Shown: positions 1,673 through 13,360 of the stretch, piece after piece
How the letters are laid out: the number at the start of each line of letters is the position of its first letter
Position numbering within the stretch: position 1 is the stretch's first letter
Source: a bacterium
Lineage (GTDB): Bacteria; SM23-81; DAOVCL01
DNA: 13,707 nt
NCBI GenBank assembly: GCA_029932675.1
Contig: JAOZPP010000082.1
Coordinates: forward strand, 1 to 13,707
Reading direction: 5' to 3'
The notes under the pieces: generated by a model
Database searches by the model: none
Seen by the model: only the letters and a program-made list of their open reading frames with translations
Told to the model about the DNA's origin: nothing
Program-made: the position numbers and the translations under genes

Positions 1673-2551
1673 ATGGCGGACAAAGACGACCTCCAAGAAT
1701 CTCATAACTACTACGTGGATGTTCCTATGAAAGGTGAGCCATTTCAGTTAAGGGGCTCAAACTCGTTGGACTGGGGGATGAAGAACCGATTGTCCAAGAT
1801 CTTTCGCCCCGAAACCGGTCGCACGGTGATGCTGGCCATCGACCACGGCTACTTCCTTGGGCCGACCAGGGGGTTGGAACGGATCGATGTAACCATCTTG
1901 CCGCTCCTTCCTTATGCCGATACCCTGATGTGCACCCGGGGCATATTGCGTTCCACCATCCCCCCCACCTTTACCAGGGGGGTTGTTCTTAGATCGAGCG
2001 GCGGCCCGAGCATCCTTAAGGAACTCTCCAACGAGGAGATCGCCGTGGATATCGAAGATGCCATCCGACTAAATGTTGCTGCTCTTGCCGTTCAGGTCTT
2101 TGTTGGGGGGGAGTATGAAACCAAGTCCATTCATAACCTAACCAGGTTAGTGGATATGGGCAACCGGTATGGCATCCCTGTCCTTGGAGTTACAGCAGTG
2201 GGCAGAGAGATGGTTCGGGACGCAAAATATATGAGGCTGGCAACCAGGATCTGCGCCGAATTGGGGGCTTCGTATGTAAAGACCTATTATGTCTCCGAAG
2301 GGTTCGAGACGGTAACCGCCTCCTGCCCAGTACCCATCGTCATCGCCGGGGGCAAGAAGGTTCCGGAACTTGAGGCTTTGAAGATGGCCTACAATGCGAT
2401 CCAGCAAGGGGCAGCCGGGGTTGATATGGGAAGGAACATCTTTCAGTCGGAAGCACCAGAGGCGATGATTCAGGCGGTGGGGAAGATCGTTCACGAAGGT
2501 ATGACCCCAGAAGAGGCATACGAGGTATATAAAACCCTTAAGAGGGGCTGA
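1673..2551 (+). CDS. lsrF: LsrF-type thiolase / class I aldolase (DhnA family)
   Basis: This 292-residue protein matches the length and whole-chain pattern of E. coli LsrF (291 residues as I recall it). Shared blocks include LDWGM (32-36), [11 protein letters not shown] (51-61), [10 protein letters not shown] (63-72), [10 protein letters not shown] (85-94), [10 protein letters not shown] (220-229) and [11 protein letters not shown] (249-259). LsrF is a class I TIM-barrel enzyme that uses a Schiff-base lysine to transfer an acetyl group from 3-hydroxy-5-phosphonooxypentane-2,4-dione to CoA, giving acetyl-CoA and DHAP in AI-2 breakdown. The expected lysine is K203 in VKTYYV. AAGGAG (1661-1666) is six bases before the ATG. 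It leads a three-gene operon. The family is firm; the AI-2 substrate is less certain, because kinase, isomerase, regulator and transporter genes are absent here. A related sugar-phosphate aldolase or thiolase role is possible. Confidence 0.88.
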
Positions 2552-2581
2552 GCATAGAAGGGAGGAGAGAACAAGAAGCAT

Positions 2582-3316
2582 ATGCCCTCCAAACAGGCCT
2601 TTAACATTCTGCGAGAATCCTCACCCACCATCTCAGTAGGGATCCTATCGGCCGACCTGATGAACCTGAGCTCCCAGTTAGCCCTGCTGGAGGGGGCAGG
2701 AATCAGGGCAATTCACTTCGATGTGATGGATGGGAGATTTGCTCCCTTGATCACTGTTGGTCCACCATTCATCAAGGCCATAAGGACATCGCTGCTTAAG
2801 GATGTGCACCTGCTAATTGATGACCCCGGGGAAAAGGTCTTTGACTTTGTCCGTGCCGGCGCCGATATGATCACCCTTCACCTGGAGTCCTCTACTAATA
2901 TCCGTCCTATCCTCCACGAATTAGGAAAGGCCGAGAATAAAAACGACCCGGAGAGGGGGATAATCCGGGGGGTAGCGATCTCTCCAGAAACGTCGGTGGA
3001 AGAGCTGAGGCCTCTGCTCGCTGATTTGGAGCTAATTCTCATCCTAACAGTTGACCTCAAGGCAATGGAAAAAGGCTTTCTTGACTCCACAGGGGAAAGG
3101 GTTGCTCAGGTAAGGGAGCTAATTACATCTGCAAACAAGGAAATCCTCCTCTCTATCGATGGTGGCGTAAACCTAAAGAACCTTCCTCAGGTTGCTAAAC
3201 TTAGACCGGATATCGTAGTCAGCGGAAGTGCCATATTCTCCGGAGGGAATCCCAGAGAAAACATTAATTTTATGCTGGAAATCCTCGAGTCGGCAGCTAA
3301 CCAAAAGATCCCATGA
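2582..3316 (+). CDS. Ribulose-phosphate 3-epimerase family protein, LsrE/AlsE-like
   Basis: A 244-residue TIM-barrel ketose-phosphate epimerase. Metal and catalytic residues of the family are present: H45 and D47 in IHFDVMDG, H76 in DVHLLI, and D193 in SIDGG. The phosphate-site GSAIF (215-219) is also kept. SVGILS near the N-terminus and RGVAISPET (129-137) resemble AlsE (allulose-6-phosphate 3-epimerase) and Salmonella LsrE more than housekeeping Rpe. The usual VNPGFGG loop, which helps bind phosphate, is replaced by LTVDLKAMEKGF (155-166), so the substrate may differ. GGAGGAG at 2561-2567 is rather far (14 bases) from the ATG. The stop overlaps the next start as ATGA (3313-3316), indicating translational coupling. 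The family is confident; the substrate is unknown. Confidence 0.85.
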   Translation: MPSKQAFNILRESSPTISVGILSADLMNLSSQLALLEGAGIRAIHFDVMDGRFAPLITVGPPFIKAIRTSLLKDVHLLIDDPGEKVFDFVRAGADMITLHLESSTNIRPILHELGKAENKNDPERGIIRGVAISPETSVEELRPLLADLELILILTVDLKAMEKGFLDSTGERVAQVRELITSANKEILLSIDGGVNLKNLPQVAKLRPDIVVSGSAIFSGGNPRENINFMLEILESAANQKIP

Positions 3317-5421
3317 AAAATAAGTGGTCGGACTCCGAGGCCGCTCAATTCATTGCCCGATATGGGCAAGAGTGGGGAGAGGACTTAGCCCTGCGCACCT
3401 ACACCAGCAGGTTAATCGGGAGGGAAAAGGCGCTGGTGCTTCATGGAGGCGGAAACACCTCGGTGAAGTCCACCCATACCAACATCTTCGGCCAGCAGAT
3501 GCCCGTCCTCTTCGTCAAGGCATCCGGATATAACCTGGCAGAGATCCAACCGGATGGGCATATTGGATTAGAACTCAGCTACCTGCAGCAACTACGCAGC
3601 CTAAAGGATCTCTCCGATGAGGCGATGATCAACGAGTTGCGCACCCACCTCCTCAGGGCCGAAGCGGCAACCCCATCAATTGAAACCCTGATGCACGCCT
3701 TCCTTCCCCCCAAGTATATCGACCATACCCATTCCGATTCTATATTGATCTTGACAAATAGGCCAAAGGGTGAAGGGGTTACTCGTCAGGCGTTGGGAGA
3801 AGATGTAGTCATTTTGCCATATGTAAGGCCCGGATTTGCCTTAGCCAAGGCAGTGGCTAGGGCATTTGAAGCTTTTCCAGAAGCTGTAGGTATGGTGCTG
3901 CTTAAACATGGGCTACTCACCTGGGGGGAGACGGCCCGTCAGTCCTACGAAAGGACAATTGAACTGGTGAATAGGGCGGAGGAGTACCTAACCAGCAAAA
4001 GGTTAAAGCCCTTGAAACCCAGGGTTACTACTCCCCCGGAGCTGGCCAGGGAAAGATACTTAAGGATCGCCCCGCTCCTCAGGGGGTTGCTTGCCCTCCC
4101 TACCGGAAATCCCGACTGGCCTTATCAACGCTTCATCATCCAACCGCTAATTACCCGGGATTCGCTTGGCCTGGTGGATTCTATTCAGGGAAAGGAGACT
4201 GCCCTTACCCCTCCCCTCACCTGTGATCATCTGATTAGGACCAAACCGTTTCCGCTTTGGGTAGATGAGCCAAATTATGAGGATGAGAAAGCACTACGGG
4301 AACAACTTTCCCAGGCGATAGATCAGTACGGAAAGGCGTATGATGCCTATTTCCAGCGTCATTCAGGGAGGTTAGGAGCTACTTCCAGTGAGTTTGACCC
4401 CCGACCAAGGGTAATCCTTTTGCCCGGGTTGGGAGCAGTGTGTGTGGGCAGGGATGCAGAGGATGCTGAAATAGTAAAGGACATCACCGCCCGGACGCTG
4501 ACTGCTAAGCGGAAGATTGCCGCCACCGCTAGGTATGAGGGATTAAATGAAGGTGAGCTCTTCGATATGGAATATTTGGGGTTGCAACAATCAAAGCTAA
4601 CCCAAAACTCCCACCTCCCCTTGCGGGGCATAGTGGCCCTCGTTACCGGCGCTGCCGGGGCCATTGGGTCGGCGATAAGCGAAGAACTACTCAAAAATGG
4701 ATCACAGGTAGCCCTCACCGATCTCCCTGGTCAGGCCTTAGACTCATTAATCGATGAACTGAAGAGGGAATACGGCCCAAGGGTAATCGGTATCCCTCTC
4801 GATGTCACTGATCCTCAATCAGTTGCCCGTGGTTTTGATCAGGTGGTCGAAACCTGGGGCGGAATTGACCTAGTGATAGCCAATGCCGGAGTTGCCCATG
4901 TCTCTTCCCTGGCAGAGATGGATCCCCAGGCCTTTCAGAAGCTGGAGCGGGTAAATGTGGAGGGAACCCTCTACCTTCTCTCTCAGGCTGCCCGCCATTT
5001 CCGGGTTCAAGCCACAGGAGGGGATATCGTGCTGGTATCGACGAAGAACGTCTTTTCCCCAGGGGCAAAATTTGGGGCCTACAGTGCCACCAAGGCAGCG
5101 GCCCATCAATTGGCCCGCATCGCTAGCCTAGAACTGGCCGAGCTCGGGGTGCGGGTGAATATGGTTGCCCCTGATGCTGTGTTTGGTTACCGAAGGAGAA
5201 GGTCTGGCCTATGGGCTGAGGTAGGCCCGGATAGGATGCGGGCCAGGGGTCTCGATGAGAAGGGCCTGGAGGAGTACTACAGGAATCGCAACCTCCTCAA
5301 AGCAAAGATAACCGCAACCCATGTGGCTAAGGCTGTATTGTTCTTCGTCACCCACCAGACGCCGACAACAGGGGCGACAATCCCTGTAGACGGCGGCCTC
5401 CCGGAGGCCACTCCCCGGTAA
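3313..5421 (+). CDS. Bifunctional class II aldolase / short-chain dehydrogenase
   Basis: A 702-residue fusion. Residues about 1-230 are a class II (zinc) aldolase domain: HGGGNTS (44-50), catalytic-type E124 in SIETLMH, zinc-ligand histidines H138 and H140 in DHTHSD, and H199 in LKHGLLTW. Residues about 436-700 are a short-chain dehydrogenase: nucleotide loop TGAAGAIG (445-452), NAG (524-526), serine in LVSTKN (574-579), and YSATK (590-594). A linker of about 200 residues joins them. Relatives such as the rhamnulose-1-phosphate aldolase/lactaldehyde dehydrogenase fusion (RhaEW type) split a ketose-1-phosphate into DHAP plus an aldehyde and then oxidise the aldehyde. Here the substrate is unassigned. 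The start overlaps the epimerase stop by four bases, and a terminator spans the end of the gene. Both active sites look intact. Confidence 0.88.
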   Translation: MKNKWSDSEAAQFIARYGQEWGEDLALRTYTSRLIGREKALVLHGGGNTSVKSTHTNIFGQQMPVLFVKASGYNLAEIQPDGHIGLELSYLQQLRSLKDLSDEAMINELRTHLLRAEAATPSIETLMHAFLPPKYIDHTHSDSILILTNRPKGEGVTRQALGEDVVILPYVRPGFALAKAVARAFEAFPEAVGMVLLKHGLLTWGETARQSYERTIELVNRAEEYLTSKRLKPLKPRVTTPPELARERYLRIAPLLRGLLALPTGNPDWPYQRFIIQPLITRDSLGLVDSIQGKETALTPPLTCDHLIRTKPFPLWVDEPNYEDEKALREQLSQAIDQYGKAYDAYFQRHSGRLGATSSEFDPRPRVILLPGLGAVCVGRDAEDAEIVKDITARTLTAKRKIAATARYEGLNEGELFDMEYLGLQQSKLTQNSHLPLRGIVALVTGAAGAIGSAISEELLKNGSQVALTDLPGQALDSLIDELKREYGPRVIGIPLDVTDPQSVARGFDQVVETWGGIDLVIANAGVAHVSSLAEMDPQAFQKLERVNVEGTLYLLSQAARHFRVQATGGDIVLVSTKNVFSPGAKFGAYSATKAAAHQLARIASLELAELGVRVNMVAPDAVFGYRRRRSGLWAEVGPDRMRARGLDEKGLEEYYRNRNLLKAKITATHVAKAVLFFVTHQTPTTGATIPVDGGLPEATPR

Positions 5422-5542: not shown

Positions 5543-6275
5543 ATGGAAGAAGAAACTAATTCCTTGCCGCCAGAGTTCCTTATGGAACTGAAGAAACTGG
5601 AGGAATCCTATCTCGCGGAGACAGATCCCATTCGTCAATCAGGATTTATCCGTGGCCAAGCCCGTTGGAGGAGGGAACGGAGATTCATTCTCAATGCGGT
5701 AGGTGGTGATGGCGATTTCCTCGATGTTGGCCGCGCGAATGGTTACTTAGTGTCTGTCCGGAAATATCCATATTTCTTGGCATTCCGGCAATTTTTAAGC
5801 TGGAATCTACTTGAGATCAGCAATGGATTCCCGCTAACGGCGTGCGGGAATGACAAATTTGGACAGACACTACTTAGTTCAATGCCTTTCAAAATGGGCG
5901 AGAGATGACGGTATCACCTTGATACCATATGGTGTTGATCAAGGTGCTGGGCTGATTGGCCTGGCCAGAAAACGACTTCCAGAGTATGCTTCACATTTTG
6001 GGGTTGCGAATGCATGAAACTGGATTCCTCCCCACAAATTTGCGTATGTTTACCCTCTTTACGATTGTGTTCCTGAGGATTTCCTCAGCGAATATGTGGA
6101 AAGACAGTTGGGAAAATATGTGGACATAGATGGCTCTCTCATCATTGGAAGTTATTCGCGGGACCAGCCAGCTCGAAATATCGGTAATGATCTAAGCGAA
6201 CTGGGTTTCCCTATTGCCGGAACCGCTTCCTCTGGCGCCCCACCAATTTCCACGATTGCCTGGATGAAGGCCTAA
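5543..6275 (+). pseudogene. Class I SAM-dependent methyltransferase, disrupted
   Basis: The frame from ATG 5543 runs through FLDVGRANGYL, a motif I (SAM-binding) sequence in which the usual Cys of DVGCANG is Arg. It is then broken by a 123-bp inserted element. Deleting 5749-5875 (element plus one target copy, 127 bases) rejoins the frame: tta at 5747-5748+5876, then gtt caa tgc. Translation continues VQCLSKW..., PYGVDQGAGLIGLARKRLP, an in-frame TGA at 6015-6017, and then NWIPPHKFAYVYPLYDCVP to TAA at 6273-6275. That makes 201 codons plus stop. The downstream half is in phase on both sides of the TGA. As it stands the insertion shifts frame, and only a truncated product ending at 5908 could be made. 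No ribosome binding site is evident before the ATG. The substrate is unknown. Confidence 0.85.
5749..5871. mobile_element. 123-bp MITE-like element with terminal inverted repeats and ACTT target duplication
   Basis: Left end AGTGTCTGTCC (5749-5759) is the exact reverse complement of right end GGACAGACACT (5861-5871). The element is flanked by ACTT on both sides (5745-5748 and 5872-5875). It has no coding capacity. Two internal hairpins of like design are present, each with an 8-bp stem and a 9-base loop: ATTCCGGC/GCTGGAAT (5782-5789 with 5799-5806, one G-U) and ATTCCCGC/GCGGGAAT (5827-5834 with 5844-5851). It is probably a non-autonomous derivative mobilised by a transposase encoded elsewhere; the family cannot be named from this sequence alone. 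Confidence 0.85.
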
Positions 6276-6665: not shown

Positions 6666-6759
6666 GTGATAAAGGTGAAAAAGGGACATCACGGTCAATG
6701 AAACTTACAGGTAAGAACAAAGGTATGGGGCTGAAGCACAGAGTAAATGACCCATACCT
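6666..6759 (+). promoter_or_regulatory. Hairpin-rich 5' leader
   Basis: Three successive stems lie between the predicted start and the ribosome binding site: GTGAT/ATCAC (6666-6670 with 6688-6692), CTTA/TAAG (6704-6707 with 6712-6715), and a perfect 9-bp AGGTATGGG/CCCATACCT (6721-6729 with 6751-6759) with a 21-base loop. The AGGAGG at 6775-6780 lies 15 bases beyond the last stem and is free. This could be a protein- or ligand-responsive leader or simply an mRNA-stabilising structure. No known riboswitch class was recognised. Confidence 0.4.
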
Positions 6760-6788
6760 GGCCTAAGGAAAGGAAGGAGGTAGAAGAA

Positions 6789-9700
6789 ATGAAGAGGTTA
6801 CTCATTGCGGTTGTAGCACTGGGTGTAGGGCTTCTTTGGTCCGCTGGAGGAAGAATATTGGCTCAGAACTGGTTTCAAACTGGCCAGCCAGCGGACATAA
6901 TTCTTGGGCCTTATGTAGACAGTGGCGGAGCTTCAGCTTTGCATCATCCTTCACGTGTTTGTACAGATACAGCAGGTCGGCTTTATGTTGCGGATACACG
7001 CAATAACCGGGTTCTTATCTGGAATACTATTCCCACTACAAATTACCAACCAGCGGATATAGTAGTAGGTCAGCCAGATATGCACTCCAATGATTCAGGT
7101 GGCGACAGCACAGGTCTCAACTGGCCAGTAGGAGTCTATTCTGATGGTATTCATCTTTTTGTAGCCGATGCTAATAACAGGCGGGTACTCATCTGGGACT
7201 CAATACCCACTCAGAATGGGGAGCCAGCCAATTTAGTATTAGGCCAGCCAAACTTTACCAGTTATGAGTTAATCATTGACTCTACCCTAACCTGGCCATG
7301 GGATGTATTTTATGATGGTCAGCATCTCTACATACTTGATGCCCACGCAGCAGGTGTGCTAATATGGAATTCTCTTCCAACTCAAAATGGTCAGCCGGAA
7401 GATTGGATAATGGGGGGTTGGTCAGATTCAGCTCTTATAGCTTCACCACGCGGGATAGCATCTAATGGGACAGCTTTAGCTATCAATGACTATCAACTTC
7501 ATCGAGTACTCCTCTGGTACAATATCCCAACCCAGCCTAATGAGCCCGCAGATGTTGTATTACTCCAGCCCGATTTTACACCATATGATGAAGGGCATTC
7601 CACACATGGTGGAATTTCTATGCATGGTGATACATTATATGTTGCAGTTGGTCACAATATTTGGGTATGGACAGACATCTACACTCTCACCAATGGACAG
7701 GACCCTGACTATATAATTGGACGTTCTGATAGACAACCTACCACTTCTGCTGTAGCTCTGTCTGGACCCTGGGGAGTCTCTACTGATGGAACGCGCCTTT
7801 ATGTGGGTGATACAAATAACAGTCGAGTGCTTATTTACAACCAGATTCCAAGCGGACCAGATATTCCCGCAGATGTTGTCCTGGGTCAGGTAGACTTTGG
7901 AAGCAATGTTTTTCGCTCCAGAAGAGGCATTCGTAGTGTGGGTGGAGTGGCCTCCACCGGGCATCATCTATTTTTGTCAAGCCCCATAGATAACCGAATT
8001 GTCGTCCACGATGGACTACCTGAGCATGATAGCGCTTCTGCTGATTACCTTCTCTCAAATGTAGATTTTGATATACCCCGTCCTATAGAATTCCCAAAAG
8101 AGGATGAATATGAGTGTAGCCAGATATGGACTGATGGCAGTTGTCTTTATGCAACAGCACGGAGGGGGATACTGATGTGGGATTCTCTTCCCCAGTCCAA
8201 TTTGGTTAGGGAAGATAGAGTTATCGACAGTATCGGGCCCGGCCGTCTCCCATTATATGATGCCTCGGGAATTACCAGCGATGGTACTCGTCTCTTTGTC
8301 AGCGATACTCGCAACAATCGGGTTATAATCTGGAACACCATACCGACCGAAAATAATACGCCAGCCGATATCGTACTTGGTCAGCCTGACTTTAACTCCA
8401 ATGAACCGGGTTTAATGAATTCTCCCTCAAGAATAGCTACTGATGGTACCCGCCTGGTAGTGTCTGGAGGGAATCAAAGAATATTAATCTGGAACACTAT
8501 CCCTACCGAAATTAATCAACCACCCGATATTACGCTTGGAGAGGGAGGGGGGTACTGTGGTTGCTGGGGATTCAACCTACCAGCGGGAGTATTTATTTTT
8601 GATAACCATTTGTTTGTAAACGACCTTGGCAATAATAGAACGTTTGTCTGGAATACTTTTCCTACAACAGGTGACCAACTACCTGATGTCATACTTGGTC
8701 AACCTGATTCTCTGACAAAGAGGGCCCGGAAGGCACGCGATGGACTGCATAACGTATGTTCCCTATGGTTTGATGGTGATTATCTATGGATAGGAGAGTT
8801 TAAATTTGCCGACCGGGTTCTGGGGTATAGGGCTACTATCTCTCCAACTGTACCAGGAACTCCCTCCGCTCTCACAGCTACAACAGTATCAGGTCATCAG
8901 ATTAACCTGAGCTGGGTGGATAATGCTACCAATGAACAGGGTTTTAAGGTAGAGCGAAAAATAGGAACAGACGGAACTTACAAACAAATTCGTTATTTAA
9001 GCGCCAATACCACAAGTTATAGAGATAAATGGCTCAATAGTGGTATAGAATACTTCTACCGCATAAGGGCATATAATCGCTATGGAGATTCAGACTACTC
9101 AAACGAGACAAATGCTACCACTTCCGCAAATAATCCACCAAATATTCCAAGTAATCCATCACCTGCTGATGGTGATACTGTGGCCGATTTTGCTTTTGGT
9201 GTGAAACCCAGTTGGACAGGGGGAGACCCGGATGAAGGTGATGCAGTCACCTATGACATCTATTTTGATACTTATGATCCCCCAATATTCTTGCTGTCAG
9301 CTAACCAAGTAAATACATTCTGTGGTCTCGATAGTCTTAGAATATTAAGTCTCGGGACTAACTATTATTGGAAAGTTGTAGCCAGAGACCTGGAAGGAGC
9401 AGAAACCGAAGGTCCTGTATGGAATTTTTATACTTGTCCATATAGTCCATATTATAACTTGACTATTTCTACCACCGCAGGAGGGACAACTTTTCCCCGG
9501 CCTGGCACTCATCGATATAGATTCGAACCAGATCCAATCGGTGTTCCTCTGACAGCTATTCCTGATAGTGGATATTCATTCTCAGGCTGGACAGGCGATA
9601 CTACAGATACTATTAACCCCATAACCATCATTATGGATAGCGACAAGAGTGTAAGAGCTAATTTCACTTTACCAGGTGTAGAGGAGGAACACGCCACAGT

Positions 9701-9986
9701 TATTCCCAAAATCTATAAGCTCTTTCAGAATTACCCAGACCCTTTCAACTTGGAGACCAAGATCGGGTATCAACTGCCAAATAGGGCTTATGTAGAGATT
9801 ACCATCTACGACATTACAGGCAGAAAGGTAAAGAAGTTGGTTTCTGCTATTAAACCAGCGGGTCACTATTCCGTTGTTTGGGATGGGAGAAACAGCCACG
9901 GCAAGGAGGTGAGTAGTGGGGTGTACTTCTATCGCCTGAAGGCCAAAGGGATTAGCCAGACCAGGAAGATGATCTTGTTGAAATGA
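6789..9986 (+). CDS. Secreted multidomain beta-propeller surface protein with C-terminal sorting domain
   Basis: A 1065-residue exported protein. The signal peptide is MKRLLIAVVALG... ending near AQN. Residues about 25-680 contain twelve repeats of roughly 50-58 residues built on the pattern PADIVLGQPDF...DGTRLFVADTNNNRVLIWNxIPT, resembling NHL-type propeller blades and compatible with two six-bladed propellers. Then come an FN3 domain (about 683-775), a second Ig/FN3-like domain (about 780-880), and an InlB-type repeat with GYSFSGWTGD and a final SVRANF (about 888-960). Last is a FlgD-Ig/T9SS type A-like sorting domain (about 972-1065) with NYPDPFN, IYDITGRKV, WDGR and SGVYFYRL. ATG 6789 is chosen over an upstream in-frame ATG at 6747, because AGGAGG (6775-6780) lies eight bases before it and the signal peptide starts there. 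It probably binds a ligand or partner at the cell surface. The function is unknown. Confidence 0.88.
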   Translation: MKRLLIAVVALGVGLLWSAGGRILAQNWFQTGQPADIILGPYVDSGGASALHHPSRVCTDTAGRLYVADTRNNRVLIWNTIPTTNYQPADIVVGQPDMHSNDSGGDSTGLNWPVGVYSDGIHLFVADANNRRVLIWDSIPTQNGEPANLVLGQPNFTSYELIIDSTLTWPWDVFYDGQHLYILDAHAAGVLIWNSLPTQNGQPEDWIMGGWSDSALIASPRGIASNGTALAINDYQLHRVLLWYNIPTQPNEPADVVLLQPDFTPYDEGHSTHGGISMHGDTLYVAVGHNIWVWTDIYTLTNGQDPDYIIGRSDRQPTTSAVALSGPWGVSTDGTRLYVGDTNNSRVLIYNQIPSGPDIPADVVLGQVDFGSNVFRSRRGIRSVGGVASTGHHLFLSSPIDNRIVVHDGLPEHDSASADYLLSNVDFDIPRPIEFPKEDEYECSQIWTDGSCLYATARRGILMWDSLPQSNLVREDRVIDSIGPGRLPLYDASGITSDGTRLFVSDTRNNRVIIWNTIPTENNTPADIVLGQPDFNSNEPGLMNSPSRIATDGTRLVVSGGNQRILIWNTIPTEINQPPDITLGEGGGYCGCWGFNLPAGVFIFDNHLFVNDLGNNRTFVWNTFPTTGDQLPDVILGQPDSLTKRARKARDGLHNVCSLWFDGDYLWIGEFKFADRVLGYRATISPTVPGTPSALTATTVSGHQINLSWVDNATNEQGFKVERKIGTDGTYKQIRYLSANTTSYRDKWLNSGIEYFYRIRAYNRYGDSDYSNETNATTSANNPPNIPSNPSPADGDTVADFAFGVKPSWTGGDPDEGDAVTYDIYFDTYDPPIFLLSANQVNTFCGLDSLRILSLGTNYYWKVVARDLEGAETEGPVWNFYTCPYSPYYNLTISTTAGGTTFPRPGTHRYRFEPDPIGVPLTAIPDSGYSFSGWTGDTTDTINPITIIMDSDKSVRANFTLPGVEEEHATVIPKIYKLFQNYPDPFNLETKIGYQLPNRAYVEITIYDITGRKVKKLVSAIKPAGHYSVVWDGRNSHGKEVSSGVYFYRLKAKGISQTRKMILLK

Positions 9987-10173
9987 GGGGGAGAGGTTAG
10001 TCAATCTCCAAAATTAGCTTCTTGGAAGGGTCAAGCTGGCTCGGATATCCCCTTTACTTGCCTGCTTTTTAGACTAATTTTGACTCTTTTGAATTGTCTG
10101 CAATTTTGCTAATTACAGAGGATTATAGAATCTTGATTATGGCATGAGAATAGACCGCACTAAGGAGGTAAAA

Positions 10174-11259
10174 GTGTTAAGGAGGCATCATCATTTCTTT
10201 GTTGTTAGCTTCCTGCTTGCCAACCTGATACTGCCTGCATATCTCTTCTCCTGCCCACTGCCGACAGCTACATTCTCGATTGTCGCTTATGATTCAGTGG
10301 CTGAGGAGTGGGGGGTGGCGGTAGAGTCCAAGTTCTTGGCTGTGGGGGCGGTGGTACCCTGGGCTAAGGCGGGAGTGGGGGCGATAGCAACTCAGGCTTG
10401 GGGCAATACCACCTATGGCCCACAAGGCCTTAACCTCTTACAGATGGGGATATCTGCTGAAAAGGTTGTGGATATACTCATCTCTCAGGACCCAGATCGG
10501 GACCAACGTCAGTTGGGCATAGTAGATGCCAGGGGGAGGGCAGCCGCCTGGACAGGCGACGGTTGTTTGGCCTGGGCTGGCCACATCGTTGGCCGAGGGT
10601 TCACTGTGCAAGGAAACATCTTAACCGGGGAGCAGGTGGTGCGTAAGATGGCAGATGCTTTCCGCTCGTCTAAAGGGCCATTGGGGAGAAGGCTCATTGC
10701 CGCCCTGCACGCTGGTCAGGAAGTTGGAGGGGATAAACGGGGGAGGCAGTCGGCGGCCCTTCTGGTAGTGCGAAAGGGGGGAGGTTACTCAGGCTATAAT
10801 GACCGATTCATTGACCTAAGGGTTGATGATCATCCCCATCCCATCGGGGAACTGGAGCGCCTCTACAACCTGCACGAGCGGACATTCCAGGGGGGTGCCT
10901 ATGTGCGGTTAGGGATGCAGGCGTTGAAAGAAGGCAAAGGGGAAAAGGCCAACTTAGCGTTAGATCGGGCGATATCTCTGGCCAACAAATATCCGGAGAA
11001 TGCGAATCTGCTTAACGGTATCGCCTGGGAGTTAGCGATCAACAACTTCCGCTTGGACGATGCTCTTAGATTGGCACAAAAGGCAACGAAGCTCGCTCCC
11101 CAAGATGCTAATATCTGGGATACGCTTGGCGAGGTCTACGCCCGACGCGGCAACTATTTAGAAGCCGTAAATGCTGAAAAAAAGGCAGTATCCTTAAGCG
11201 GAGGCAATAAGGAGTTCCAGGGGAAGTTGGAGAGGTGGCAGAAGCTACTCCCCAAGTAG
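10174..11259 (+). CDS. Secreted DUF1028 Ntn-hydrolase-like protein with C-terminal TPRs
   Basis: DUF1028 (COG3342) proteins are predicted N-terminal-nucleophile hydrolases of unknown substrate. The hallmark TFSIVAYD (33-40) is followed by WGVAVESKFLAVG, VVPWAKAGVGAIATQAWGN, TVQGNIL, GGDKRGRQSAALLV and IDLRVDDHPHPI. Residues 1 to about 32 form a signal peptide (hydrophobic VVSFLLANLILPAYLF). Cleavage after A32 would leave Thr33 as the N-terminal residue, which suits an Ntn enzyme. Residues about 239-352 carry TPR-like repeats (NLALDRAISLANKYPEN and following). The GTG at 10174 is chosen because AGGAGG (10163-10168) lies five bases upstream; an ATG at 10144 has no such site. The protein is 361 residues. 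C27 in LFSC weakly resembles a lipobox, so a lipoprotein is an alternative. No T-rich terminator was found after it. Confidence 0.88.
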   Translation: MLRRHHHFFVVSFLLANLILPAYLFSCPLPTATFSIVAYDSVAEEWGVAVESKFLAVGAVVPWAKAGVGAIATQAWGNTTYGPQGLNLLQMGISAEKVVDILISQDPDRDQRQLGIVDARGRAAAWTGDGCLAWAGHIVGRGFTVQGNILTGEQVVRKMADAFRSSKGPLGRRLIAALHAGQEVGGDKRGRQSAALLVVRKGGGYSGYNDRFIDLRVDDHPHPIGELERLYNLHERTFQGGAYVRLGMQALKEGKGEKANLALDRAISLANKYPENANLLNGIAWELAINNFRLDDALRLAQKATKLAPQDANIWDTLGEVYARRGNYLEAVNAEKKAVSLSGGNKEFQGKLERWQKLLPK

Positions 11260-11509: not shown

Positions 11510-13360
11510 ATGGTCCTTGTCTCTCTCCAAGGGATATACAAATCTTATGGGGATAAGGTCGTTTTAGATGCGGTGGATTGGCAGATAACCGATGGGAGAA
11601 GGATCGGCCTTGTCGGCCCCAATGGGGTGGGGAAGACCACCCTTTTGGAGATAATCGCTGGCCAGAGGGAGCCTGATAAGGGGGTGGTGCAGCGGGGAAA
11701 GGGGCTGAGGATAGGCTATCTCCAGCAGGAAGCCCAGTTGGTGGGGGAACGTTCCCTAAAGGAGGAGATGGAGGAAGTCTTCGCCTCCCTTCTAAGGAAG
11801 GAGAGCAAAATAAGGGAACTGGAGGAGAGGATCTCCTCTAAGCAAGGGGATCTGAAGTTCCTGCTTAAGGAATATAGCCGATTGAGCCAGGAGTTTGAAG
11901 CCGCAGATGGCTACCTCATCCATACTAAGATAGAGAAAACCCTCTTTGGCCTTGGCTTCCAGGCGGAGGACCTCACCAAGAGGGTAGGGTCCCTCAGTGG
12001 CGGACAGAAGAGCATTGCCGCCCTGGCAAAGGTGCTCTTGGCTGATCCGCAGCTTCTTCTCTTAGACGAGCCGACTAATCACCTGGATATCAGGGCCACC
12101 GAGTGGCTGGAGAGGTTCTTGGCTGACTACCCCCGAACCTACATCATCATCTCCCATGATCGCCAGCTCTTGGATAGGACCACCGAGGAGATAGTAGAGG
12201 TTGAAGGAGGGAAGCTGAAGAGGTGGGTGGGAAACTACTCTGCCTATCAGATCCAGAAGCAGAAGGAGTTAGAACTTGCCCAAAAGAGGTATGAACTCCA
12301 GCGGGAATGGATAGAGAGGACTGAAGAGTTTATCCGCAGAAATATAGCTGGGCAGAAGACCAAGCAGGCCCAAAGCAGGAGGAAATTGTTGGAGAAGGTG
12401 GAGAGGTTGGAGAAACCTTCCCCTAAGGTTAGGGGACCAGTTCTCCGGTTTGACTCTCGCAGAAAAGGGGCTCAGGAGGTCCTCCGCCTGGAGAAGGTCA
12501 GCAAGACCTTTCCGGGCATGAGGCTCTTCTCCGGGGTAAGTTTCACCCTTTTGCGCGGTGATCGAGTAGGATTAGTTGGGCCCAATGGATCGGGGAAGAC
12601 CACCCTGATGAAGATAATTGTTGGTGAGGAGAAAGCCGACCAAGGTTCAGTTAGAGTGGGCAATGGGGTAAAGATAGGTTATTATAGCCAAGAACATGAA
12701 AATTTAAACCGCGGAAGATCTGTCTTGGATGAGGTCTGGGGGGTGGAGCCTTACCTTACCCAGGGGGAGATAAGGAGTTATTTAGCCAAGTTCCTCTTTC
12801 GGGGCCAAGAGGTTTTCAAACCCATTACTGAGCTCAGCGGAGGGGAACAGAGTAGGGTCTGTTTAGCTAAACTTATCTTGGGGAAACCCGATCTCCTCCT
12901 TCTGGACGAACCCACCAACCACTTGGATATACCCTCCCTGGAGGCATTAGAGGAGGCTCTGTCAGGATTTAAGGGCACGGTATTTGTCGCCTCCCATGAT
13001 CGCTATTTTCTCGACCGATTGGTAAACAGGATCTTCTACCTTAGCGGTGAGAAGCTCTCTAAATGGGAGGGAAACTACACGGAAACGGCTGGCAAGTGGA
13101 GAGAGCAGGAGGGTAAACCTACCACCCAGCGAAAGGGGAGGAGGAGGAAAGCAAGGAGCCCAGCAAGGATAGAGAAGGAAATAGCTTCCTTAGAGGAGAG
13201 GCTTTGGGAGACGTCCCTCCTCTTAGCCGATAGGGAGGTCTATTCCAATTGGCAGAAGCTGCATTCCCTCTTAGAGGAGAGGGAATCCCTCTCTAAGCAG
13301 ATCAACACCCTTTACAAGAAATGGGAGGAAGCCGTAAAGGAGGAAGAGGAAACTGTTTGA
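11510..13360 (+). CDS. ABC-F family ATP-binding protein (ribosome-associated, duplicated ABC domains)
   Basis: 616 residues with two ABC modules and no membrane segment, as in ABC-F proteins. Module 1 has Walker A GPNGVGKT (36-43), signature LSGGQ (162-166) and Walker B LLLLDEPTNHLD (182-193). The linker at about 240-325 is rich in charged helical residues (RNIAGQKTKQAQSRRK), matching the P-site tRNA-interaction motif region. Module 2 has GPNGSGKT (357-364), LSGGE (442-446), LLLLDEPTNHLD (462-473) and SHDRYFLDR (495-503). A basic, coiled-coil C-terminal tail (about 545-610) resembles Uup/YdiF-type proteins. ABC-F proteins enter the ribosomal E site and relieve stalled or drug-bound ribosomes; which subfamily this is cannot be fixed by eye. 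AAAGGG at 11496-11501 precedes the ATG. The stop is one base before the hflX start. Confidence 0.93.
   Translation: MVLVSLQGIYKSYGDKVVLDAVDWQITDGRRIGLVGPNGVGKTTLLEIIAGQREPDKGVVQRGKGLRIGYLQQEAQLVGERSLKEEMEEVFASLLRKESKIRELEERISSKQGDLKFLLKEYSRLSQEFEAADGYLIHTKIEKTLFGLGFQAEDLTKRVGSLSGGQKSIAALAKVLLADPQLLLLDEPTNHLDIRATEWLERFLADYPRTYIIISHDRQLLDRTTEEIVEVEGGKLKRWVGNYSAYQIQKQKELELAQKRYELQREWIERTEEFIRRNIAGQKTKQAQSRRKLLEKVERLEKPSPKVRGPVLRFDSRRKGAQEVLRLEKVSKTFPGMRLFSGVSFTLLRGDRVGLVGPNGSGKTTLMKIIVGEEKADQGSVRVGNGVKIGYYSQEHENLNRGRSVLDEVWGVEPYLTQGEIRSYLAKFLFRGQEVFKPITELSGGEQSRVCLAKLILGKPDLLLLDEPTNHLDIPSLEALEEALSGFKGTVFVASHDRYFLDRLVNRIFYLSGEKLSKWEGNYTETAGKWREQEGKPTTQRKGRRRKARSPARIEKEIASLEERLWETSLLLADREVYSNWQKLHSLLEERESLSKQINTLYKKWEEAVKEEEETV

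Follow-up and report, generated by a model that had tools for sequence, protein, structure and literature searches.

What does a thiolase named for autoinducer 2 (AI-2) processing do in an operon that lacks the importer, kinase and regulator of the lsr system? The operon lies on contig JAOZPP010000082.1 of a bacterial genome (assembly GCA_029932675.1; GTDB lineage SM23-81, DAOVCL01), of which a stretch of 13,707 nucleotides, here called the window, was analyzed. It consists of three open reading frames (ORFs), with a 30-base gap between ORF1 and ORF2 and a 4-base ATGA overlap between ORF2 and ORF3, a fusion gene at 3313-5421. A sequence-only reading of the window had described this layout and the enzyme families, and ORF coordinates and profile matches bore out both. 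The features are as follows.

1673 to 2551, plus strand: ORF1, LsrF-family thiolase of 292 amino acids (NF006081, PDB 3gkf/3glc, active-site residues), with the codon of the Schiff-base lysine K203 at 2279-2281.
2582 to 3316, plus strand: ORF2, LsrF-linked epimerase of 244 amino acids, a paralogue of ribulose-phosphate 3-epimerase (PF00834).
3313 to 4602, plus strand: class II (zinc) aldolase half of the fusion, residues 1-430 (PF00596, motif survey).
4603 to 5421, plus strand: short-chain dehydrogenase/reductase (SDR) half of the fusion, residues 431-702 (PF00106, motif survey).

We propose that the operon encodes the end of a salvage pathway in which 5-deoxypentose phosphates would be converted, by oxidation and thiolysis with coenzyme A (CoA), to acetyl-CoA and dihydroxyacetone phosphate (DHAP). 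This would be a variant of the DHAP shunt, and on balance we hold it to be just probable. The proposal is built on gene content, linkage and active-site conservation, from which every reaction in these organisms is predicted.

ORF1 matched the NCBIfam model for LsrF (NF006081) over its full length with 502 bits against a cut-off of 297, and it aligned end to end with the structures PDB 3gkf/3glc. It is 59% identical to Escherichia coli LsrF over 291 columns. Ten residues (D57, H58, K203, Y205, G226, G227, D251, M252, G253 and R254) are identical in ORF1, E. coli LsrF and all 156 family members compared, so that K203 is in place as the sequence-only reading had held. Judged by its sequence, ORF1 is an LsrF orthologue, and its predicted reaction is that of 3-hydroxy-5-phosphonooxypentane-2,4-dione with CoA to give DHAP and acetyl-CoA, products that had already been named as likely. 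According to PMC7828210, which cites Marques et al. 2014, LsrF yields acetyl-CoA and DHAP, a reaction established in the literature for the E. coli enzyme. A plain class I fructose-bisphosphate aldolase was considered for ORF1 and dropped: the recurrent neighbor taken at first for a fructose-bisphosphatase is a zinc alcohol dehydrogenase, and the LsrF active-site residues are invariant.

LsrF has been known so far for destroying the quorum signal AI-2, and signaling was the obvious role to examine. LuxS, the AI-2 synthase, which is not strictly required for an lsr AI-2 system, was found in none of 49 LsrF genomes tested, including that of the window, in a search that detected the controls (E. 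coli, Bacillus subtilis and others). No match to an LsrK-like kinase was obtained at 1e-50 in the window genome, and the other genomes hold only FGGY relatives of 26-30% identity. The window contains no ORF for lsrG, lsrB, lsrR or the importer, as had been noted before for importer, kinase and regulator; for LsrG, LsrB and LsrR the search did not extend to the whole genome. Because LuxS is missing from all 49 genomes and the window genome lacks an LsrK-like kinase, the ORF1-ORF3 set is not an AI-2 system. The operon might still be a remnant for processing phosphorylated AI-2 (P-DPD) or a signal scavenger, given that LsrF and LsrE are lsr proteins and that ORF1 is so close to the E. coli enzyme, and we give this almost no credence on the same two absences. 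LsrG, too, was found next to LsrF nowhere but in the three enterobacterial lsr loci that served as references, and the LsrFs of lsr operons cluster in one small clade of the LsrF tree (support 97). Nearest to that clade (96) are LsrFs from Sagittula and Shinella, whose gene neighbor is a class II aldolase or the fusion. The lsr operon (LsrF, LsrG, LsrE, LsrK, LsrR, LsrACDB) shares with the window an LsrF orthologue with an identical active site and an epimerase of the LsrE clade, whereas the diketone that is formed there by LsrK and LsrG would be supplied in the proposed module by a dehydrogenase.

The association of LsrF with a dehydrogenase was found to be widespread. With LsrF as the query, one genome per species was scanned and 558 relatives were obtained, of which the best 80 loci, with LsrFs 71-88% identical, were examined. 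Their records are labeled Deltaproteobacteria/Myxococcota, Nitrospirota, Acidobacteriota, Latescibacterota, WOR-3, SAR324, Magnetococcales, Omnitrophota, Planctomycetota and others; metagenome bins supplied many of the loci, and the taxon names used here follow the records. In the genes called there, LsrF precedes the fusion, and the epimerase often sits in between. Because this order recurs in unrelated phyla it is not due to chance, which agrees with the earlier view of a coherent enzyme set. Additional loci came from surveys that covered Acidobacteriota, SAR324 and Pseudomonadota (individual loci carry L numbers below). A dehydrogenase gene adjoins LsrF in 124 of the 156 distinct loci, spread over many phyla: the fusion or its SDR half in 100 and a zinc medium-chain dehydrogenase/reductase (MDR) in 24. 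Another three are lsr operons, and three have only the epimerase or the isomerase MtnA.

The SDR half stands alone beside LsrF in L059, L068 and L080, and in L068 it covers only positions 436-703 of the fusion model. A zinc MDR takes the place of the fusion in Desulfobacterota and in a second group of Acidobacteriota; the single MDR that was classified, from L025, falls in the threonine 3-dehydrogenase family, which acts on a substrate with a CH3-CHOH group. Since SDR-only and MDR loci exist, the aldolase half is optional and the core of the module is the dehydrogenase-LsrF pair. The three-enzyme set of the sequence-only reading is thus real, and its aldolase half is not essential. The set is present even in a small genome of 0.9 Mb (L059). 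Among the four genomes searched in the window's own phylum, LsrF occurs in the window genome only.

ORF3 scored 892 bits (cut-off 686) with the subfamily model NF006194 and is a fusion of a class II aldolase and an SDR. It retains the aldolase residues E124, H138, H140 and H199 and the SDR residues D470, N524, Y590 and K594 in a motif survey, and we predict that its SDR half is an NAD-dependent C4 dehydrogenase of 5-deoxyribulose-1-phosphate. The related RhaEW fusions have the same domain order and act on rhamnulose-1-phosphate and lactaldehyde, making DHAP and lactate from rhamnulose-1-phosphate (PMC3870299). Without NAD+, RhaEW yielded neither DHAP nor lactate (PMC3870299), a requirement that fits oxidation before cleavage in the fusion family. 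This kinship suggests another role, in which the operon would degrade a 6-deoxyhexulose-1-phosphate or another imported deoxyketose: the aldolase would release DHAP and an aldehyde, the SDR would oxidize the aldehyde, and LsrF would take a related diketo sugar phosphate. Two loci are arranged as such a role would have it, LsrF-fusion-sugar ATP-binding cassette (ABC) transporter-FGGY kinase in Shinella and FGGY kinase-LsrF-class II aldolase in Sagittula. We nevertheless regard it as unlikely. ORF3 reached 482 bits with the RhaEW model TIGR02632, below the cut-off of 567.75 and far short of its fit to NF006194, and unlike RhaEW it is paired with LsrF and an epimerase. The window holds no rhamnose isomerase, rhamnose kinase or other rhamnose gene; more generally it has no kinase, isomerase or transporter, and none is found among the annotated recurrent neighbor families except MtnA. 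The SDR-only and MDR variants without aldolase, and the occurrence of the set in the 0.9-Mb genome, speak against it as well.

MtnA is the best lead to the substrate. Isomerases of this type convert 5-deoxyribose-1-phosphate to 5-deoxyribulose-1-phosphate (PMC6079011). Four different gene orders place MtnA next to LsrF or the fusion. The order is MtnA-fusion-LsrF in the SAR324 loci L058, L065 and L078, with four genes between fusion and LsrF in a further SAR324 locus (L038); it is fusion-MtnA-LsrF in L057, MtnA-LsrF-window-type fusion in L103 and LsrF-MtnA in L053. The MtnAs of the L038, L053, L057, L058, L078 and L103 genomes passed the TIGR00512 cut-off, and in each of the L057, L058 and L103 genomes a single MtnA was found. 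Within the fetched stretches of loci L002-L081, MtnA was seen six times, in three unrelated lineages, against 0.36 expected by chance. The chance of linkage in three lineages is P = 0.006, and L103, from a separate survey, represents a fourth. The clearest case is L053, where the run comprises a GntR regulator, one further gene, S-adenosylmethionine (SAM) synthetase (metK), methylthioadenosine (MTA) phosphorylase (MTAP), a phosphoribosyltransferase, transaldolase, phosphoribosyl pyrophosphate synthetase, transketolase, LsrF and MtnA; on our reading, the phosphoribosyltransferase serves adenine salvage. The phosphorylated C5 (deoxy)sugar that had been guessed as the likely substrate is made specific by this linkage to MtnA, MTAP and metK.

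Salvage of a 5-deoxypentose is proposed because the C4-oxidized form of the MtnA product is exactly the known substrate of LsrF. The source would be by-products of SAM chemistry, namely 5'-deoxyadenosine and perhaps also methylthioadenosine, from which a nucleosidase or phosphorylase together with MtnA, encoded elsewhere in the genome, would give 5-deoxyribulose-1-phosphate. Oxidation of this compound (CH3-CHOH-CHOH-CO-CH2-OP) at the hydroxyl next to the methyl group, the C4 hydroxyl, gives CH3-CO-CHOH-CO-CH2-OP, or 3-hydroxy-5-phosphonooxypentane-2,4-dione, from which LsrF takes its enzyme name. The SDR half would carry out this step, and LsrF, with an active site identical to that of the E. 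coli enzyme, would split the diketone with CoA into acetyl-CoA and DHAP. A secondary-alcohol dehydrogenase and LsrF would therefore complete a closed route from a 5-deoxysugar to acetyl-CoA, DHAP and NADH. The epimerase may adjust C3, either of the 1-phospho-5-deoxyketose or of its C4-oxidized form. The aldolase half could provide a second exit to DHAP and acetaldehyde, as in the DHAP shunt, or may act on the diketone.

The logic has a precedent in threonine degradation, where a dehydrogenase is followed by CoA cleavage to acetyl-CoA. Threonine dehydrogenase and 2-amino-3-ketobutyrate CoA ligase likewise oxidize a CH3-CHOH group and release acetyl-CoA with CoA, and the MDR variant is Tdh-like. 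This is an analogy only, for the CoA-cleaving enzyme and the substrate are both different. Closer is the DHAP shunt or drd system (drdK-drdI-drdA; MtnK/MtnP-MtnA-Ald2), which has the predicted upstream metabolites, MtnA, DHAP as a product and a class II aldolase in common with the proposed module (PMC6079011, PMC10986504, PMC12632272). There the C2 unit leaves as acetaldehyde, whereas the proposed module would add a dehydrogenase and LsrF and yield acetyl-CoA and NADH. The aldolase of the window is RhaE-like, dispensable to the set and the N-terminal half of a PRK08324-type fusion, rather than a FucA/DrdA-type enzyme clustered with the isomerase. In a literature search, for which subscription journals were outside reach, no paper was found that ties LsrF to MtnA, 5-deoxyribose or methylthioribose; a prior description is possible.

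Two other substrates would feed the same enzymes. The first is 5-methylthioribulose-1-phosphate derived from methylthioadenosine, which would give DHAP and (methylthio)acetyl-CoA in a branch of sulfur salvage. The names of MtnA and MTAP derive from methylthio substrates, L053 has a linked MTAP, and DHAP-shunt enzymes take sugars derived from both MTA and 5'-deoxyadenosine (PMC10986504). The known product of LsrF, acetyl-CoA, and its invariant active site fit a CH3 rather than a CH3-S-CH2 group, and the window genome has no strong MTAP, which makes this substrate decidedly improbable. The second is 1-deoxyxylulose-5-phosphate, disposed of by C4 oxidation to what would be the chemically identical LsrF substrate. 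Annotated neighborhoods show no linkage to isoprenoid genes, and the linkage to MtnA would be left unexplained; we consider this one very improbable.

Several findings weigh against 5-deoxypentose salvage. No recognized partner lies within reach of LsrF in 26 of the 156 loci, some of which are cut by contig ends. MtnA of the window genome (G000:C19; 455 bits against the TIGR00512 cut-off of 279) is not linked to the operon, a further difference from the DHAP shunt, and adjoins rplM. The only MTAP-like match in that genome is a purine nucleoside phosphorylase. Co-occurrence of MtnA with LsrF (46 of 49 LsrF genomes) was dropped as evidence and only physical linkage kept: in Acidobacteriota, the control phylum, nearly every genome has MtnA (140 of 149, with or without LsrF), and co-occurrence is therefore uninformative. 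Finally, the reason for fusing an aldolase to the SDR is a guess only. In favor of the proposal, the window genome encodes MtnA, an MTA/S-adenosylhomocysteine nucleosidase and the purine nucleoside phosphorylase. At the MtnA site of this genome (L240), the gene lies directly upstream of that for ribosomal protein L13, and rpsB, tsf and pyrH come next.

ORF2 is a member of the ribulose-phosphate 3-epimerase (Rpe) family and falls below the cut-off of every named subfamily, including LsrE (PRK14057; 105 bits, cut-off 530, with Salmonella LsrE at 602) and AlsE (PRK09722; 95 bits, cut-off 271). A canonical Rpe is encoded elsewhere in the window genome (G000:C55; 258 bits against 138 for ORF2), and in most of the 14 genomes with a linked epimerase there is likewise a separate Rpe that is the stronger match. 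In the tree, which like that of LsrF was rooted at the midpoint only, the epimerases linked to LsrF group together in a clade that excludes canonical Rpe and AlsE (100/100); the one exception is an ordinary Rpe-like neighbor in L145. Salmonella LsrE falls inside the linked clade on a very long branch; forcing it together with Rpe was rejected (p-AU 0.0165), and it has features such as KDVHLM and AVNPG in common with the linked group. The sequence-only reading was thus right about the likeness to LsrE and wrong in calling ORF2 AlsE-like, since AlsE groups with canonical Rpe and its model scores below cut-off. In the subclade of the window epimerase the PGxGGQ loop (PGFGGQ) has degenerated or been replaced, and a changed or reduced role is therefore possible there.

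The simplest history may be that lsr took its LsrF-epimerase pair from this module. No established function of LsrE turned up in the literature, and neither AI-2 uptake nor lsr transcription changed detectably when it was deleted (PMC2728841). In its broadest form, the idea is of a widespread oxidative-thiolytic salvage of 5-deoxypentose phosphates to acetyl-CoA and DHAP, in which interchangeable dehydrogenases feed LsrF, from which enterobacterial LsrF and LsrE were recruited and in which LsrE is the C3 epimerase of the LsrF substrate or its precursor. We offer this tentatively, as a possibility somewhat short of even. It suggests a route that would be older than the AI-2 use of LsrF, and widespread, and would give the lsr processing enzymes an origin and LsrE a testable function. 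Many radical-SAM enzymes, across all domains of life, release 5'-deoxyadenosine as a by-product, and what becomes of it beyond the known carriers of the DHAP shunt or drd cluster is largely open; an acetyl-CoA-yielding branch in many uncultured phyla would, if real, fill much of this gap. For annotation, quorum sensing would then not be implied by the automatic name "AI-2 thiolase LsrF" in a bacterium that lacks AI-2.

The surveys also turned up other LsrF contexts. A second LsrF group in Acidobacteriota (L116-L130), 56-62% identical, usually lies next to an MDR alcohol dehydrogenase, and its match begins near residue 27, the first N-terminal stretch seemingly missing. On two Bacteroidota plasmids (L235, L236) the dihydroxyacetone kinase genes DhaK-DhaL are followed directly by LsrF, also without lsr genes. 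A conjugative plasmid of Lacticaseibacillus paracasei (L237) carries a sugar ABC transporter, LsrF, a haloacid dehalogenase-type (HAD) phosphatase and phosphotransferase system subunits; its LsrF has a long branch in the tree. A thiolase and pyruvate kinase occur near the SAR324 cluster. The acidobacterial neighbors RuvAB, an aminoimidazole ribonucleotide (AIR) synthetase-like protein and a formyltransferase were set aside, as they look like conserved genome neighbors and make no metabolic sense.

Promoter and terminator scans of the window gave no more signal than shuffled sequence. The sole match of an Rfam scan was the tRNA-Asn (GTT) at 1141-1215, upstream of the operon. At 505-1038 is a stand-alone macro-domain protein (ADP-ribose binding or hydrolyzing). 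Downstream of the operon, a reading frame at 5543-6274 is broken by a short element resembling a miniature inverted-repeat transposable element, with perfect 12-base inverted ends (TAGTGTCTGTCC and GGACAGACACTA, arms at 5748-5759 and 5861-5872); the flanking frames look like one split gene. Positions 6747-9986 encode an NHL-repeat protein of 1079 amino acids with fibronectin III, InlB-like and FlgD/type IX secretion-like C-terminal domains, and 10144-11259 a fusion of a DUF1028 domain and a tetratricopeptide repeat tail with, by eye, a likely signal peptide. A putative ABC-F ATPase at 11510-13360 matched NF000355, a general ribosome-protection-type model, with 451 against 380 bits, and could be a housekeeping protein.

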